From positions 1-25,791 of the IMG/VR virus record IMGVR_UViG_3300044949_000637: 25,791 nt of DNA; one strand, given 5' to 3'. Positions within the stretch are counted from its first letter, which is position 1, and every line of letters begins with the position of its first letter. Source of the DNA: a virus. A program made the translations under genes and the position numbers. The notes under the pieces were generated by a model. The model ran no database searches. It worked only from the letters and a program-made list of their open reading frames with translations, and had not been told where the DNA came from. Of the stretch, positions 7,679-22,620 are shown one piece after another.

Positions 7679-9223
7679 ATGGCCTTTCAAGGCTTTACAA
7701 TGTCACCGCCCTATGGCGGGTTGGACGCAGTAAGTCCAATAGACAATATGGATCCTTCCTTTGCGTTGGAATTGGTAAACGTGTTTCCTGGTGCTGGTGC
7801 TCCATCAGTTAGACTTGGCTATACTAAGTTTAACAACACTGGCACCACTATTCCTGCTACGCCAATTAACTTTATGCGAGAATTGCCACTCGCAGATGGA
7901 ACTAAGCATCTAATTGCAGCTACAGATACTAACCTTTACAAGATATTAGTAGACGGTTCTGTATCAACTGTAACTAATGCTACACCCCATACAGATGGTA
8001 AATTCAACTCTGAGATATTTGCCAATAACTTATATCTTTGTAATGGAATTAACACACCGCAAGTTTACACAGGCACAGGCAATGCCGCTAACGTAACGTT
8101 TACCTGTAGTGCCGGACTAAGTAATCTCATTACTTGCGCAGCCTGGAAACGCAGACTTTACTTTGTGCAAAAGAACTCAATGTCAGTTTGGGTGCACGCT
8201 TCAGTAGACGTGCCTGGAACTGGAGGCTCTCCAAAACTAGATGAAATTCTAGATATTAAGTATGTAATGACCAAGGGTGGCTACCTGTTATTTGCTGGTA
8301 GTTATACCAATCAAACAGCATCTACATCACAAGACCTATTCTTTGCTTGTAGTTCTGAGGGTGAGATAGTTTTTTATAGTGGCAATAGCCCATCAGATTG
8401 GTCATTAGTAGCGCACTATTACATAGCAAAACCAGTTGGATTTAGAGCTTTTATCAGAGTTGATGCTGATGTTTGGATAATTACTCAAGATGGAATAGTA
8501 CCATTATCTGCCCTATTTCAAAGTGATTCTGTATCTGCATTAACACTTGTAAGCGGGAAAATTAACCCTATTATTTCCGCTGCTGCTGAAACCTTTAAAT
8601 TCTCTCACGATTGGGCTGGCTTTGTATGGCCTAGAGGTAGAAGAATCTATATCTCTGTCCCGCAATCTAGTACAGAAAACTACTTCCTAGTTTATTCGAT
8701 GGATACTAGGGGCTGGACTATTTTTAGACTGTTTGACGGTGCTCACGCTAACTCATCCTGCTACGCCTTTGAACAGCCGTTTTATAGCTCTCTAACCGGA
8801 ATAGTTTATCAGGGAGAGTATGGTCAGGCTGACGCTATAACCTCTACTTCAACTGGCCAGGCCATTACATTCTCTGGTCGTACTGCATTTAGTTTTTATG
8901 GCAGCAGGGGCAATTACAAAGCCTTTAAAGACATCAGGCCGTTGCTAAAAGTTAAAAAAGGCGTAACCCTAAGTCTAGGACTGGATACTGATTTTAAGAG
9001 ATCGGCAGTGGTTACTAGCGTTACAAGTCCACCTAGTACATTTACGGCGTGGGGTAGTCCTTGGGGTAGCCCTTGGTCTGCTGATGTAGAGTATACGTTT
9101 GATAGGTATGCTGTTAAGGGGCAGGGGCATTGTGCAGCAGTAAGATTTGGTGGTGCTATTAAAAACACTACCTTAGATATTTTTGGATTTGAAATTCGGT
9201 ATGATTTAGGTGGTCAGGTATAA
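7679..9223 (+). CDS. tail hub / DNA-stabilisation protein (P22 gp10- and T7 gp12-like beta-propeller)
   Basis: 514 aa. The opening GFTMSPPYGGLDAVSPIDNMDPSFALELVNVFPGAG is characteristic of podovirus tail hub proteins, which sit below the adaptor and close the DNA exit channel. Throughout, short strands recur with aromatic ends (LYKILVDGSVS, FNSEIFANNLYLCNGIN, WKRRLYFVQKNSMSVW, GEIVFYSGNSPSDWSLV, DVWIITQDGIVPLSALF), the rhythm of a propeller. The C-terminal DFKRSAVV...WGSPWGSPW...RYAVKGQGHCAAVRFGG is also typical. ATG begins 1 nt after the previous stop (TAACTAATGG). Length matches the family. Recognised by pattern, not search. Confidence 0.8.
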   Translation: MAFQGFTMSPPYGGLDAVSPIDNMDPSFALELVNVFPGAGAPSVRLGYTKFNNTGTTIPATPINFMRELPLADGTKHLIAATDTNLYKILVDGSVSTVTNATPHTDGKFNSEIFANNLYLCNGINTPQVYTGTGNAANVTFTCSAGLSNLITCAAWKRRLYFVQKNSMSVWVHASVDVPGTGGSPKLDEILDIKYVMTKGGYLLFAGSYTNQTASTSQDLFFACSSEGEIVFYSGNSPSDWSLVAHYYIAKPVGFRAFIRVDADVWIITQDGIVPLSALFQSDSVSALTLVSGKINPIISAAAETFKFSHDWAGFVWPRGRRIYISVPQSSTENYFLVYSMDTRGWTIFRLFDGAHANSSCYAFEQPFYSSLTGIVYQGEYGQADAITSTSTGQAITFSGRTAFSFYGSRGNYKAFKDIRPLLKVKKGVTLSLGLDTDFKRSAVVTSVTSPPSTFTAWGSPWGSPWSADVEYTFDRYAVKGQGHCAAVRFGGAIKNTTLDIFGFEIRYDLGGQV

Positions 9224-13852: not shown

Positions 13853-14941
13853 ATGTGTGCTTGGTCAGGTGGAAGCTATACAAAGGGTAATAACGGTACT
13901 GGTGGTTGGGCTGGTGATGCAGCACTTGGCATAGGCATTGAGGCGGGGCGACATGATACGCAGGATAATGATTTTGCTACAGGTATCAACCAGTGCATTA
14001 ACAAAGATGGCTCTAATGCTTTTACTGGCAATCCTAATCTTGGTGGGTACATTCCTACAAATATCGGTGCTGGCTCTGCTGGCGCTCCTGCTATATGTCC
14101 AGGTAACGATGTAAACACAGGCATGTACTCTGCTGGTGCAGACTTTCTAGCATTTGCTGTAAATGGAGTTCGGCGCTTTTACTCTACTGGCGGTCACACT
14201 GCCATCGAAAGCAATATAGCCAGCAATTTCGCGCTAAGCGTAATTAACGCTAATACAGGTGCCAATAGTTACGGACTAATAATTGACCAAGCCAGAAGCG
14301 CTTTTGCTCTTGCTGTTAGAGATAACACTAATACATATAGACACGTTTGGAACGCTGATGGCAGCTTTTCTATTGGTGGCAACGGTAGTGCATTAAATTG
14401 TAATACTTCTGGTGATATTTTAATTAACAAAACAGCAGCAAATACGACAGATGCAGGAAGTTACTTTACCAAAGGTGGAGGGGCTACAAATCCTGCTACT
14501 TTGGCATTTGTAAAAACCGTCAGCGGATTAGTAAATGGTATTGTAAACTATTATGCTGGTACATACGTTGGTGGAGTTGATTTTAGTAATACAGCTACAT
14601 CGTTTCCTACATCATCCGACTATCGACTAAAGGAAAATGTAGTTCCTATTTCTAATGCTGTTACCAGGCTTAATCAGCTAAAGCCAGTGCGGTTTAACTT
14701 TATTGCTGAGCCAGATAAAACGGTTGATGGTTTCCTAGCGCATGAGGTTGCTGAGGTAGTACCTAACGCTGTATCTGGTGAAAAGGATGCAGTTAATGAT
14801 GATGGCACGATTAAGGTGCAAGCACTGGATCACAGCAAGCTAATCCCGCTACTTGTTGGTGCGCTACAGGAGCTTAGCACCAAAGTAGAAACTCTTGAGT
14901 CTCAAGTAGAAATGTTACAAACACAGGTGGCAATAGGATGA
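13853..14941 (+). CDS. tail fibre/spike-like protein with S74 intramolecular chaperone domain
   Basis: 362 aa. The N-terminus (SYTKGNNGTGGWAGDAALG, then HDTQDNDFATGINQCINKDGSNAFTG) is a common virion-anchoring segment of phage fibres. The middle is beta-rich and Gly/Asn/Thr-heavy. The C-terminal ~110 residues are a Peptidase_S74 / endosialidase-type chaperone: SSDYRLKENVVPI with Ser255-Asp256 as the expected self-cleavage site and Lys260, then LKPVRFNFI, then DGFLAHEVAEVVPNAV, then a trimeric coiled coil (LSTKVETLESQVEMLQTQ). The domain trimerises the fibre and is then cut off. Ribosome site AGGAGA at 13842-13847. The short body lacks an obvious receptor-enzyme domain, so it probably binds rather than degrades its receptor. 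Confidence 0.85.
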   Translation: MCAWSGGSYTKGNNGTGGWAGDAALGIGIEAGRHDTQDNDFATGINQCINKDGSNAFTGNPNLGGYIPTNIGAGSAGAPAICPGNDVNTGMYSAGADFLAFAVNGVRRFYSTGGHTAIESNIASNFALSVINANTGANSYGLIIDQARSAFALAVRDNTNTYRHVWNADGSFSIGGNGSALNCNTSGDILINKTAANTTDAGSYFTKGGGATNPATLAFVKTVSGLVNGIVNYYAGTYVGGVDFSNTATSFPTSSDYRLKENVVPISNAVTRLNQLKPVRFNFIAEPDKTVDGFLAHEVAEVVPNAVSGEKDAVNDDGTIKVQALDHSKLIPLLVGALQELSTKVETLESQVEMLQTQVAIG

Positions 14942-15357
14942 CACGTTTAAGGCTTGTCAGAGTATCGGAGTTTAACGGTGCAACTATGGGCGTGTTGTGT
15001 GTTAATGACATGCCTGAGTTTGTAACGTTAGAGGATGCCTGGCGAGCCAATGAGCGTAGGATCAGTTGCATACCAGTAGGCAGATACAAAGTACTTCCAA
15101 GGCAGAGCCCTAAATTTGGGCGCACTTGGCAGGTAATGGATGTACCAGAGCGTGACCATATCCTCTTTCATGCGGGTAATACGCATAAGGATACGCATGG
15201 TTGTATCTTGCTTGGTATGCAGTTTGGCAGGGTTGGAGATGAGTCGGCTATCTTAGCCAGCAGGTCAGCGTTTAATCGCTTTATGGATCTGATGGCGGGT
15301 ACTCCCGAAGCAGAATTAATTGTAATTGATGCTTACGGAGGGGGGCGGGTTCACTAA
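14938..15357 (+). CDS. DUF5675 family protein, probable envelope-acting enzyme
   Basis: 139 aa. It fits DUF5675: LEDAWRANERRISCIPVGRYKV, then a beta core ending in HILFHAGNTHKDTHGCILLG. His78, Asn81, His87 and Cys89 resemble the H-x-x-N...H-G-C layout of L,D-transpeptidase-like enzymes; that similarity is my observation and the catalytic activity is unproven. No signal peptide. It overlaps the fibre gene by 4 nt (ATGA) and is followed by TM and secreted proteins, so a role in lysis or cell-wall handling is plausible. Its stop overlaps the next start (TAATG). Confidence 0.75.
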   Translation: MTRLRLVRVSEFNGATMGVLCVNDMPEFVTLEDAWRANERRISCIPVGRYKVLPRQSPKFGRTWQVMDVPERDHILFHAGNTHKDTHGCILLGMQFGRVGDESAILASRSAFNRFMDLMAGTPEAELIVIDAYGGGRVH

Positions 15358-15596
15358 TGACTGGCGATATTACTGAGCTTAGATACTGGCTTGATATTAT
15401 TATTAAGGCTGCCATTGGCGTGCTAGTGTCAATTATTGGATTAGACTATAGAGCGGTAAAGAATAGTCTGCATGAGCTTGAAACTCATAAATATACTGTT
15501 ACGGCAGAGGTGCAGGTTATTCAGACAGAGCTAGCTTACATTAAGGGTCGGCTAGATAAGATTGATGCAAAGCTGGACAAGGCTTTAGACAGATGA
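15357..15596 (+). CDS. small TM plus coiled-coil protein of the lysis region
   Basis: 79 aa. One transmembrane helix at about residues 12-29 (LDIIIKAAIGVLVSIIGL) is followed by a long coiled coil (AVKNSLHELETHKYTVTAEVQVIQTELAYIKGRLDKIDAKLD). The short N-terminus and cytoplasmic/periplasmic coiled coil fit the small membrane proteins found next to phage lysis genes, such as holin-associated or i-spanin-like proteins; sequence alone does not separate these. Both ends overlap neighbours (TAATG upstream, ATGA downstream), showing tight coupling. Function inferred. Confidence 0.6.
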   Translation: MTGDITELRYWLDIIIKAAIGVLVSIIGLDYRAVKNSLHELETHKYTVTAEVQVIQTELAYIKGRLDKIDAKLDKALDR

Positions 15597-16402
15597 GAGC
15601 GCTTTTAGTGCTGCTGGCACTAACTGCTGTAGTTGAGGCTCAGGCACCTAGTTTGCTGGGCATTTGTCACAAAGATTTTAACTGTAGCGGCGTGGAAAGC
15701 CTTTACGCTGGTCAGGATAAGCTAATTGTTAGCTGGCTAGAGAACACGTTTGGGACTGAGTGCAAGTGTCTAGAATCGCTGTTAAATGACGCTAGACCAA
15801 AGATAATTAGAGCCCACCTGATACAAAGCCCATGCATGAGAAACAAGCGTTGTGGCCGTTATGAGGCTTTATGGGGCTATACAGCGGCATCAGCCAATAG
15901 GGCAGTAAAGAATCCAAGAAGCAGGTTAAGAAAAAGGTTTGCTATAATACTAGAGCGATTTAGGCAGCGGATACAGGGTAAAGAACTTACCTGTTACGTT
16001 AGCCCCTGTCTGGAGTGTGACCTAAATGGAAGAGCTAGAGGAATGCTTGCCGATATTGTATCTGCTAATTTGCCTATGTGTAACGTTGTGGACAATCCAT
16101 ACAGGCAACGCTGTCTACCAGGATACACCTGTGAGCAGCATGGAGTTAATCCTCGTTTATCTGCCCCTTGTATAGTTGACCTAGATGGGATTGATGGCAC
16201 TACGATTGACCTAAAGAAATGGGTGGCTAAATACCAGCACTGTGATTTATCCTTTTATTGGGAGCTTTGGATGAACTGCATAAGGGGTGACTTTACTGAC
16301 CCTAGAAAGCGTAATTGCAGGTATCCAGTTAGTTTGTTTGAATCAACAAGGGAATTATTATGCCAATACTTTTATCCATTGTACGACATCTGCTCACTCT
16401 AG
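15593..16402 (+). CDS. secreted cysteine-rich protein, possible glycosidase-like fold
   Basis: 269 aa with a clear Sec signal peptide (MRALLVLLALTAVVEAQA, cut after residue 18). The mature chain contains 18 cysteines, an even number, suggesting up to nine disulfides in the periplasm. Patterns HLIQSPCMRNKRCGRYEAL, LTCYVSPCLECDL, NVVDNPYRQRC, CIVDLDGIDG and DLSFYWELWMNCI recall strands of a TIM-barrel hydrolase (Glu in CLECDL and the FYWELW end strand), but this is a tentative reading. It is coupled to the upstream gene by ATGA, and the holin-like gene starts within its last 43 nt. A periplasmic lysis or envelope role fits the context. I know no close family for certain. Confidence 0.7.
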   Translation: MRALLVLLALTAVVEAQAPSLLGICHKDFNCSGVESLYAGQDKLIVSWLENTFGTECKCLESLLNDARPKIIRAHLIQSPCMRNKRCGRYEALWGYTAASANRAVKNPRSRLRKRFAIILERFRQRIQGKELTCYVSPCLECDLNGRARGMLADIVSANLPMCNVVDNPYRQRCLPGYTCEQHGVNPRLSAPCIVDLDGIDGTTIDLKKWVAKYQHCDLSFYWELWMNCIRGDFTDPRKRNCRYPVSLFESTRELLCQYFYPLYDICSL

Positions 16403-16545
16403 CTGCTGGTAGCTTGCTTACTATCGGTGTTAGCGAGGATCAGGCAGAGGGGCTTGTTAAAGCTGCTGAGCCTGTAGTTGCTGGTGCTGTACTTTACGGT
16501 GCTACTCAGGCTTGGTCAGTTATTGAGAAGAAAAAGCGTCGCTAA
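16360..16545 (+). CDS. putative holin (Pam3-gp28-like small membrane protein)
   Basis: 61 aa. A first hydrophobic helix (PILLSIVRHLLTLAAGSLLTIGV, about residues 2-24), an acidic connector (SEDQAEGLVKAAEP), a second hydrophobic helix (VVAGAVLYGATQAWSVI), then a KKKRR tail. This matches the holin-like phage proteins with R-H-x-L-T-x-x-G-x-x-L and a Lys/Arg C-terminus, which make membrane lesions at lysis. It starts within the preceding secreted-protein gene behind AAGGGAA (16349-16355), and its stop overlaps the stop of the convergent leftward gene (shared ctaa). It is the last rightward late gene. Confidence 0.75.
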   Translation: MPILLSIVRHLLTLAAGSLLTIGVSEDQAEGLVKAAEPVVAGAVLYGATQAWSVIEKKKRR

Positions 16546-21232: not shown

Positions 21233-21255
21233 TTGTGTACAGTATCAGTACACAG
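21233..21255. promoter_or_regulatory. inverted-repeat operator candidate
   Basis: GTGTAC (21235-21240) and GTACAC (21248-21253) are perfect 6-bp arms around a 7-nt centre, so GTGTACAGTATCAGTACAC reads as a palindrome. It straddles the stop of the 21245-21736 gene. Related 10-bp elements occur at 22501-22510 and 25133-25142. It could bind a regulator or form an RNA hairpin; no T-tract follows. Confidence 0.4.
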
Positions 21256-21736
21256 TACTGAGCGCTAGTACCTTCTTTGCATATTTTTGCCCCTCAGCGC
21301 ATTTAACTCGCCCACAGTTGTAGACGGTTAGTGCTCGCTGTAAGTCCCCATGCTGATCAAGTTCTTCGCGCAGAATCCTTGCCCCACAACGTAGGTTGTA
21401 AGTCGGATCCCACAAATGATCAGCGTTAGGTAGCCCACAGCGGCGAGCGTTGAAGGGCATGATCTGAGCTATCCCCCTAGCACCGACTTTAGAGACGGCT
21501 TTGGGGTTGTAAGCGCTCTCTACTCTCACCAGAGCTTTAAGCACTTTGCGTGATAGCCCATAAGCATCAGCGGCACGCTCTACTTCAGCCTCCAGAAGGC
21601 CCCTAGAAGCCACCACAGGGCGACGGAGTAACCGCCCCCCATGGTAGACCAAGCCCTCTGGAAGCGTCGTATAGCAAGCGAGTAGGACAAGGGCAGCGAC
21701 TACCCAGCCGCCACCCTCTTTCTTGTCCTCACTCAC
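21245..21736 (-). CDS. membrane-anchored lytic transglycosylase (SLT), possible SAR-type endolysin
   Basis: 163 aa. Hydrophobic, Ala/Gly/Val-rich segment at residues 10-26 (GWVVAALVLLACYTTLP) is a signal anchor of modest hydrophobicity, as in signal-arrest-release endolysins (inference). The SLT domain is about 50-160: LSRKVLKALVRVESAYNPKAV with catalytic Glu73, then GARGIAQIMPFNARRCG, then LWDPTYNLRCGARILREEL, then RALTVYNCGRVKC. Several cysteines (21, and those in the domain) could form disulfides. GTG 21736 overlaps the stop of the small TM gene (GTGA). It cleaves peptidoglycan; it may act in lysis or envelope remodelling. It is distinct from the virion SLT at 13843. Confidence 0.8.
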   Translation of the reverse strand: MSEDKKEGGGWVVAALVLLACYTTLPEGLVYHGGRLLRRPVVASRGLLEAEVERAADAYGLSRKVLKALVRVESAYNPKAVSKVGARGIAQIMPFNARRCGLPNADHLWDPTYNLRCGARILREELDQHGDLQRALTVYNCGRVKCAEGQKYAKKVLALSTVY

Positions 21737-21897
21737 TTTCTACCCACTGTTGCGCGTACTGCCATGGCTGGATCATCGCCTAGCACATAGACTCTAACCC
21801 CAATAGCAGTCGTTATGACCCCCACAAAAAAACAAACGTGCAGGATCGTGACCATGATGCCAGTCGGCGTGAAAAGGAGCTCTTTGATTGCCTTCAT
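21733..21897 (-). CDS. small transmembrane protein, holin-like candidate
   Basis: 54 aa, ATG 21897 to TGA 21733. N-terminus MKAIKELLFTPTG, then a hydrophobic helix GIMVTILHVCFFVGVITTAIGV (residues about 13-34), then a short polar tail (DDPAMAVRATVGRK). It starts 2 nt after the lipoprotein stop behind GGGGAG, and its TGA overlaps the GTG of the transglycosylase. The single TM helix next to a muralytic enzyme and a lipoprotein suggests a holin- or spanin-type role, but this is from context only. Confidence 0.65.
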   Translation of the reverse strand: MKAIKELLFTPTGIMVTILHVCFFVGVITTAIGVRVYVLGDDPAMAVRATVGRK

Positions 21898-21899
21898 GA

Positions 21900-22094
21900 T
21901 TAGCTCCCCTGAACGTTAGTCGGTTGAGAGCAGTCGGCCCATAGGTAGCACTTGAGCGGTACGTTATGGGTTTTCTGCGATTCTTGGCGCTCATCGACGC
22001 GAGTTATCCACAACTTTCCACCAGCTTCAATCCCAGTACAACCGGAAACAGCAGCGGCCAATAATCCAAGTATTCCAAACAATATCTTTCTCAT
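21900..22094 (-). CDS. small lipoprotein (o-spanin-like candidate)
   Basis: 64 aa. Signal peptide MRKILFGILGLLAAAVSG followed by Cys19: V-S-G-C is a lipobox. Position +2 is Thr, not Asp, so outer-membrane sorting is expected in a Gram-negative host. The mature part is 46 residues, with KLWITRVDERQ and two more cysteines (LKCYLWADC). Small lipoproteins beside muralytic enzymes are often outer-membrane spanins such as Rz1, but no i-spanin partner of Rz type is obvious here. ATG 22094 lies in the GAGGAATATATGAG cassette. A superinfection-exclusion lipoprotein is the alternative. Confidence 0.7.
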   Translation of the reverse strand: MRKILFGILGLLAAAVSGCTGIEAGGKLWITRVDERQESQKTHNVPLKCYLWADCSQPTNVQGS

Positions 22095-22124
22095 ATATTC
22101 CTCATCTATTTACACGTTAAACAA

Positions 22125-22445
22125 CTACCTACCCCAACCTAGATCAAGACCTCTCATCGGCTGGCCTAATCCATCATTAGGCACAACACGTTGCACAGTC
22201 TCGCTTCCGGTTAGATCACGATCAAAGATATTTCGTTGTGGCCTTGTAGTGGTCACAATCGAGTATCCTGTACCCCATGGCCCCCTATCTTGCGGTACAG
22301 GCAGCACTGGTTGCACTGGTAGGCCGTAGGCAGGGGCAGGGGTAGCAAACCCGCTATTAGCAATAGCCCAGTCAAGGGCGTTTGGCTCAGACTGCGCAGA
22401 AGCAGCAAGCGGGATAAATGTTAGTGCTATTAGTATCTTTCTCAT
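22125..22445 (-). CDS. exported periplasmic protein (106 aa)
   Basis: The open frame is longer, but the real start is ATG 22445: AAGGAG lies directly upstream and the protein then opens with a signal peptide, MRKILIALTFIPLAASA, cut after Ala17. The mature part is Pro/Gly-rich and apparently disordered (PAPAYGLPVQPVLPVPQDRGPWG), with TTTRPQRNIFDRDLTGSETVQRV. No enzyme motif. It is the first gene of a four-gene exported/membrane set. The first codons (ATGAGAAAGAT) match those of the lipoprotein gene. Function unknown; periplasmic location is well supported. Confidence 0.7.
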   Translation of the reverse strand: MRKILIALTFIPLAASAQSEPNALDWAIANSGFATPAPAYGLPVQPVLPVPQDRGPWGTGYSIVTTTRPQRNIFDRDLTGSETVQRVVPNDGLGQPMRGLDLGWGR

Positions 22446-22472
22446 ATACTCCTTTGCTTGGCTTAATTGCCT

Positions 22473-22510
22473 TACTGTTGACAGTAGCATGTATGATGCC
22501 CTGTGTACAG
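22473..22510. promoter_or_regulatory. two short palindromes in the divergent control region
   Basis: TACTGT-TG-ACAGTA (22473-22486) is a 6-bp-armed palindrome. CTGTGTACAG (22501-22510) is a second. They lie between the leftward exported-protein genes and the rightward initiator. The second matches CTGTATACAG at 25133-25142 in 9 of 10 bases. Operator function is inferred from repetition and position. Confidence 0.4.
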
Positions 22511-22538
22511 AGATATTTTCGGAATATATAAAAATTTC

Positions 22539-22567
22539 TTGAGGGTTTTGTTCTGGAAGGGTATAAC
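22539..22567 (+). promoter_or_regulatory. sigma70-type promoter for the initiator gene
   Basis: TTGAGG (22539-22544), 17-bp spacer, TATAAC (22562-22567). Both hexamers are near consensus with ideal spacing. Start of RNA near 22574, about 60 nt before the ATG at 22634, with an attenuator-like hairpin in between. Confidence 0.6.
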
Positions 22568-22580
22568 TGATTGAAACGAT

Positions 22581-22620
22581 AAAAAAACGCCCCATACCGG
22601 TCAAAGTAATAGGGCGTTTT
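22581..22620 (-). terminator. bidirectional hairpin: strong leftward terminator, leader attenuator rightward
   Basis: AAAACGCCC (22584-22592) and GGGCGTTTT (22612-22620) are perfect 9-bp arms with a 19-nt loop. Read leftward, the stem is followed by seven T (plus-strand A run 22581-22587), a full intrinsic terminator that would stop transcripts from the 25-kb leftward operon after they cross the initiator genes. Read rightward it ends in only four T and lies in the leader of the initiator mRNA. Confidence 0.75.

Follow-up and report, generated by a model that had tools for sequence, protein, structure and literature searches.

The window, by which we mean the whole stretch of DNA analysed (25,791 bases, a virus record from IMG/VR with a podovirus-like gene set), carries a four-gene lysis cassette on its plus strand. 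The first gene (14938-15357) encodes a DUF5675 protein, a candidate cytoplasmic endolysin that matches PF18925 above the curated cut-off (E 1e-33, 116 bits). It is followed by the gene of a 79-aa membrane protein (15357-15596) that, judging by its sequence, has one likely transmembrane (TM) helix and then a coiled coil; its PHROG matches were weak only. The third gene (15593-16402), the subject of this study, encodes a 269-aa protein with 18 cysteines, predicted to be exported and to fold as a (beta/alpha)8 barrel; its open reading frame, dN/dS and relatives in IMG/VR mark it as a gene. The fourth (16360-16545) encodes a small holin of the Pam3 gp28 family (PF23987, E 1.1e-8, 35.5 bits, also above the curated cut-off). 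The barrel gene overlaps the TM/coiled-coil gene 5' of it by 4 nt (15593-15596) and the holin gene 3' of it by 43 nt (16360-16402), in agreement with the coupling between a TM/coiled-coil gene and a holin-like gene that an earlier note on this DNA had described. That note had also given the position of the open reading frame and its 18 cysteines; both were confirmed, and the frame lies on the plus strand. It should be noted that the C-terminal tail of the protein, including C267 (16360-16402, plus strand), is coded in two frames together with the holin start, and that this overlap is found family-wide.

The cassette survey covered 82 loci, each with a family protein of its own after deduplication on the last 200 residues. 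Wherever 700 nt or more of upstream sequence is available (74 loci), the DUF5675 and TM/coiled-coil genes lie 5' of the barrel gene. Of the 79 loci that extend 200 nt or more downstream, 78 have a holin that starts less than 60 nt from the end of the barrel gene; in the 79th (L175), the holin lies exactly at the 60-nt limit. All four genes were also found in nine of nine additional, divergent loci. The order DUF5675, TM/coiled-coil gene, barrel gene, holin is kept in every judgeable locus.

Several observations on neighbouring genes are recorded here in their own right. The DUF5675 protein carries an invariant HAGN...DT.GC motif, which we take to resemble the cysteine site of L,D-transpeptidases. 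A search of PDB sequences with the DUF5675 profile gave no match below E 0.1, and relatives occur in 310 INPHARED records, small Microviridae genomes among them. At one locus (L283:4371-4762) DUF5675 is found in two overlapping frames; another (L255), with the same Cys-rich protein, has one frame. Among the virion genes of the window are those of the major head protein (PHROG 9953), a large SLT-domain protein, an adaptor of the SU10 type and a tail fibre that carries a peptidase S74 chaperone. Ten INPHARED records, for example Mx8, BUCT555 and a Bradyrhizobium phage, have a major capsid protein that matches that of the window, at 25-34% identity; these matches name no host. The gene at 7679-9223 (plus strand) matches PHROG 5107, labelled ‘amidase’; this label looks misleading because several INPHARED relatives are annotated as virion structural proteins (neck, stabilisation, tail tubular, head-closure). 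Finally, the minus strand has a second cluster of exported genes (21245-22604), which codes for an SLT transglycosylase of 163 aa whose N-terminal part has a membrane segment, a lipoprotein of 64 aa (lipobox AVSGC) and a secreted protein rich in Pro. A scan of loci L034-L179, a set in which many loci share a contig and overlap, gave relatives of the first in 129 loci, of the second in 24 and of the third in 36, with other SLT domains included in the SLT count. This cluster may be the true endolysin/spanin module, or an exclusion module.

Family, cysteines and predicted export

Pattern-based scans of IMG/VR identified relatives in 32 of 32, 147 of 151 and 167 of 178 candidate stretches, and the family comprises at least 167 stretches in that database. 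Using L175, L187 and a YWE..MNC pattern as starting points added more divergent members. The final alignment consists of 98 rows, three fragments included, and represents 97 distinct proteins, the window protein being present twice (WIN and L001); gapped cells are excluded from all residue counts made on it. The lowest identity to the window protein is 41%, and the sequences form 57 clusters at 90% identity. In ten pairwise comparisons among five members, restricted to the part 5' of the holin overlap, dN/dS was 0.11-0.15; the barrel gene is under purifying selection.

Scans of 54 members against Pfam, PHROGs and NCBIfam gave scattered weak matches only, nothing convincing, and no match to the barrel protein was found in PDB sequences, INPHARED phages or plasmids. 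In INPHARED, the window protein gave no match at E <= 1 and L175 none at E <= 10; L285 gave a single match of 38 residues (E 5). Bacterial genome contigs, scanned with two short peptide patterns, yielded 33 stretches and no relative among them, a scan that relatives with variant patterns would escape. Likewise, no relatives were detected in 398 genomes of the phylum of genome G019 or in two other genomes, in a scan run without a positive control. Within the data searched, the family is limited to one lineage of uncultured phages and three distant BFVD proteins, and, as far as sequence comparison goes, the protein belongs to no named family in the libraries searched. No title among those found in the literature searches describes the family, which is not proof of its being unpublished.

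The first 16 residues of the window protein (MRALLVLLALTAVVEA; 15593-15640, plus strand) are predicted to be a Sec signal peptide without a lipobox, on the basis of a simple rule, set up for this analysis, that combines a hydrophobic core with a cleavage motif. By the same rule, a signal peptide-like N-terminus is present in all 89 family rows that have an N-terminus. The protein is thus predicted to be exported by Sec, with removal of the signal peptide. Cleavage after A16 would leave a mature chain of 253 residues, close to the approximately 251 given in the earlier note. All 18 cysteines lie downstream of the predicted signal peptide. From the background of the window's other listed genes (73 cysteines in 7855 residues, 0.93%), 2.4 would be expected in a chain of this length (binomial P(>=18) = 5e-11), and the barrel gene has the highest Cys fraction among the 44 genes of the window that were counted.

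We found that the cysteines are near-invariant across the 97 distinct sequences, and that the exceptions occur mostly in pairs. In rows with a letter at the position, cysteines 25, 31, 57, 59, 81, 87, 174, 180, 193, 217 and 229 do not vary, and C242 is also constant save in L236, where the change sits at a cut contig end. C134 and C163 are jointly lost in six rows (Val and Ser in L062 and L063; Leu and Ala in L175 and L177-L179), and the predicted model places them at the starts of the adjacent strands 4 (133-140) and 5 (163-167). C139 and C142 are jointly lost in L187, both being replaced by Ser. C257 and C267 are both missing in L032, L186 and L188; this pairing is less sure because L187 keeps C257 without C267. 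Mostly pairwise loss of cysteines, in a protein that appears to be exported, is the pattern that disulfides would predict, and from the conservation and the pairwise loss we infer eight or nine of them. The proposal of a disulfide-rich exported protein, for which cysteine positions not conserved among homologues had been named as the contrary outcome, is therefore strengthened by the near-invariant cysteines, their mostly pairwise loss and the signal peptide-like N-termini. The CxC (C57/C59) and CxxC (C139/C142) spacings would also suit cysteines that bind a metal or iron-sulfur clusters in place of forming disulfides; we consider this very improbable, given the N-termini of all 89 rows and the joint losses at C134/C163 and C139/C142.

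Predicted fold and candidate active site

An AlphaFold2 model of the mature chain, built with a 54-row alignment (pLDDT 89.2, pTM 0.86), has eight strands: in window protein numbering, 18-19, 44-49, 70-78, 133-140, 163-167, 179-183, 193-196 and 219-222, the first of which comprises two residues only by DSSP. An earlier full-length model built with 22 rows (pLDDT 73) was rejected as too weak for fold work; a Foldseek search with it had weakly indicated GH5 and GH29, the same direction as the later model. For the later model, the best Foldseek matches in the PDB were GH29, GH35 and GH5 barrels (probability up to 0.97), and no match reached E <= 0.001. Re-alignment with VIA-align, confined to the 1000 best Foldseek chains, placed the GH5 mannanases 1qnp and 3wh9 at the top (Z 14.0, rmsd 3.4, 222 aligned residues, 7% identity), where the best Z of models without a clear match is typically 7-8. 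Carbohydrate-active barrels, among them GH5, GH35, GH164 and LacZ, filled ranks 1-38 of the list, and rank 39 was a putative aldo-keto reductase (Z 11.2). The (beta/alpha)8 barrel is a well-supported prediction, and the TIM-barrel fold that the earlier note had tentatively read from sequence motifs is upheld by a confident model and by the fold comparison.

These matches bear on whether the protein is a secreted endolysin, that is, a Sec-exported muralytic glycosidase that membrane energy or the disulfide state would restrain in the periplasm until the holin fires, whereupon it would cleave the glycan strands of peptidoglycan. Its place in the lysis cassette beside the holin and its signal peptide-like N-terminus are what such an enzyme would have, and Sec-exported, holin-independent lysis proteins exist, as an account in PMC7143992 indicates. 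However, the fold comparison places beta-mannanases and beta-galactosidases at the top, and not lysozymes; moreover, the cassette already has its DUF5675 protein and SLT transglycosylase domains were detected in 18 of 18 large related records, and a third muralytic enzyme would be unneeded. We regard a secreted endolysin as rather unlikely, though the strongest of the competing explanations.

The candidate active site was sought among residues that are invariant across the family. Across the 98 aligned rows, the invariant polar residues number sixteen: K70, R73, H75, R83, N84, E141, R149, D167, E181, H183, D196, D198, Y222, W223, N228 and R240. Of these, seven map to a zone of 40 residues where the strands have their C-terminal ends (odds ratio 4.5, Fisher p 0.008), and the N-terminal zone contains a single one (p 0.06 for the comparison of the two zones); the zones were defined by us. 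The motif CLECDL (residues 139-144; 16007-16024, plus strand) brings E141 just after strand 4, flanked by C139 and C142. E141 is present in every row that has a letter there (97 of 97), and is retained in L187 despite the loss of C139, C142 and D143; L140, just before it, is likewise present in all rows with a letter. On strand 6 lies E181-x-H183 (16133-16141, plus strand), and at the end of strand 7 D196-L-D198-G199 (16178-16189, plus strand), in which G199 is invariant as well as the two Asp. The motif FYWELW (residues 221-226; 16253-16270, plus strand) marks the end of strand 8, with Y222 and W223 invariant and E224 replaceable.

Both motifs are present as claimed in the earlier note, which had taken them as hints of a hydrolase and had looked to a conserved Glu pair across homologues. 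The clustering of invariant polar residues at strand C-terminal ends supports the hydrolase reading indirectly; the Glu pair itself did not hold. E224 is present in only 93 of 98 rows; four of the others (L175, L177-L179) have Asn at this position and L285 has Ser, and a catalytic pair of E141 and E224 was rejected on account of these five rows. On the model, a putative site would instead combine E141, E181/H183, D196/D198 and W223 at the active-site end of the barrel. This grouping argues against the idea that the barrel is a mere scaffold and the protein a catalytically silent binder, such as a periplasmic antiholin or a superinfection-exclusion factor. That idea has in its favour the overlap of the barrel gene with the holin gene, membership in the cassette, which would fit an antiholin or an exclusion protein too, and the precedent of T4 RI, described in PMC8385771 as an antiholin that is located in the periplasm and has a signal peptide that can be cleaved. 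Overall, we think a silent binder unlikely.

Proposed role and relation to known systems

With moderate confidence, we propose that the protein is an exported, multi-disulfide (beta/alpha)8-barrel enzyme of the host-exit block, which most likely cleaves an envelope glycan. The gene order suggests that it would be made late, together with the DUF5675 protein, the TM/coiled-coil protein and the holin. It would be exported by Sec and lose its signal peptide, after which the periplasmic Dsb system would close the eight or nine disulfides. The barrel would then present a glycosidase-type site, with E141 as the putative acid/base. When the cell bursts, the holin and the candidate endolysin, DUF5675, would breach the inner membrane and the peptidoglycan, and the barrel enzyme would loosen a glycan layer outside the inner membrane, allowing virions to exit. 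The candidate substrate is peptidoglycan or another envelope glycan; a third, redundant peptidoglycan enzyme is somewhat less likely because SLT domains (in all 18 records) and DUF5675 are present.

An exported Cys-rich barrel of no named family in a lysis block suggests an unstudied mode of attack on the cell envelope. If the protein is an enzyme, phages would have in it a new means of attacking an envelope glycan, its site would comprise E141, D196 and E181/H183, its disulfide scaffold is possibly useful in its own right, and the lysis cassette would contain a soluble exported enzyme as constant as the holin.

The nearest known proteins in fold belong to clan GH-A. In this clan, a Glu acid/base after strand 4 is directly preceded by Asn, a His lies on strand 6, the Glu nucleophile on strand 7, and a Trp after strand 8. 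With the closest members, the GH5 beta-mannanases 1qnp, 3wh9, 3wfl and 3ziz, the barrel is shared along almost the full length of the protein (Z 13.9-14.0, rmsd 3.3-3.4, 219-222 aligned residues), and on the model E141, H183 and W223 occupy the corresponding places after strand 4, on strand 6 and after strand 8. Conversely, strand 7 carries an invariant Asp (D196) and not Glu, with D198 also Asp, and the residue before the strand-4 Glu is Leu (L140) and not Asn; compared to the GH5 mannanases, the family protein is 7-9% identical, shorter, and has 16-18 cysteines. PF00150 (GH5) found no match among the 54 members, and a local hhalign comparison to a small GH5 profile (the seed plus at most 14 extracted domains) gave a probability of 0.1%. 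Membership in clan GH-A was rejected on these grounds: because two clan residues and profile similarity are missing, the protein is best described as putatively working like a glycosidase without being filed under GH-A.

The same two departures, at strands 7 and 4, would be in keeping with another barrel chemistry, such as that of a lyase, epimerase or transferase, which would modify an envelope glycan or lipid, with changed receptors on the dying cell or on debris as one conceivable effect. Aldolase and epimerase barrels do appear in the Foldseek list, mostly lower, whereas the top-scoring solved structures are glycoside hydrolases, and we assign this alternative a low probability.

Also similar in predicted structure are three uncharacterised proteins of uncultured Caudovirales phages in BFVD, A0A6J5M538, A0A6J5SYH0 and A0A6J5MYV4 (Foldseek E 4.6e-18, 1.4e-14 and 1.1e-12; TM-score on the query 0.84, 0.76 and 0.70), which are 23-26% identical to the window protein, two of them being longer (451 and 375 aa). 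Because all three match strongly, a wider phage superfamily exists.

Among lysis proteins, secreted endolysins, with a signal peptide or SAR domain, share with the barrel protein the N-terminal Sec signal, which our rule calls in all 89 rows that have an N-terminus; an example is M4Lys of phage BSPM4, presented in PMC7143992 as lysis-related and exported independently of holin. They differ in that the barrel protein has no match to a lysozyme or amidase family and has a separate endolysin candidate in its own cassette.

Spanins, according to PMC6139136, have their role in the last step of lysis, outside the inner membrane. A bolder version of our proposal would have the barrel enzyme take their place: a Sec-exported, disulfide-locked glycosidase of a new family (E141 plus the strand-7 Asp) would break down the outer glycan layer and may be kept inactive by the CLEC cysteine pair on either side of E141 until periplasmic redox or energy collapses, a putative gating. 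Consistent with this, no lipobox ORF was detected in the cassette region of 80 of the 82 loci scanned, and the two others have one on the opposite strand. However, the only lipobox ORF found in the window, the lipoprotein gene at 21900-22094 (minus strand), which is distinct from the barrel gene, could be an o-spanin, and we consider this version doubtful. In the reading that we favour, the barrel protein resembles spanins in that it is proposed to act outside the inner membrane in the final step of lysis, and differs from them in having neither a lipobox nor a second membrane anchor and in being a globular barrel.
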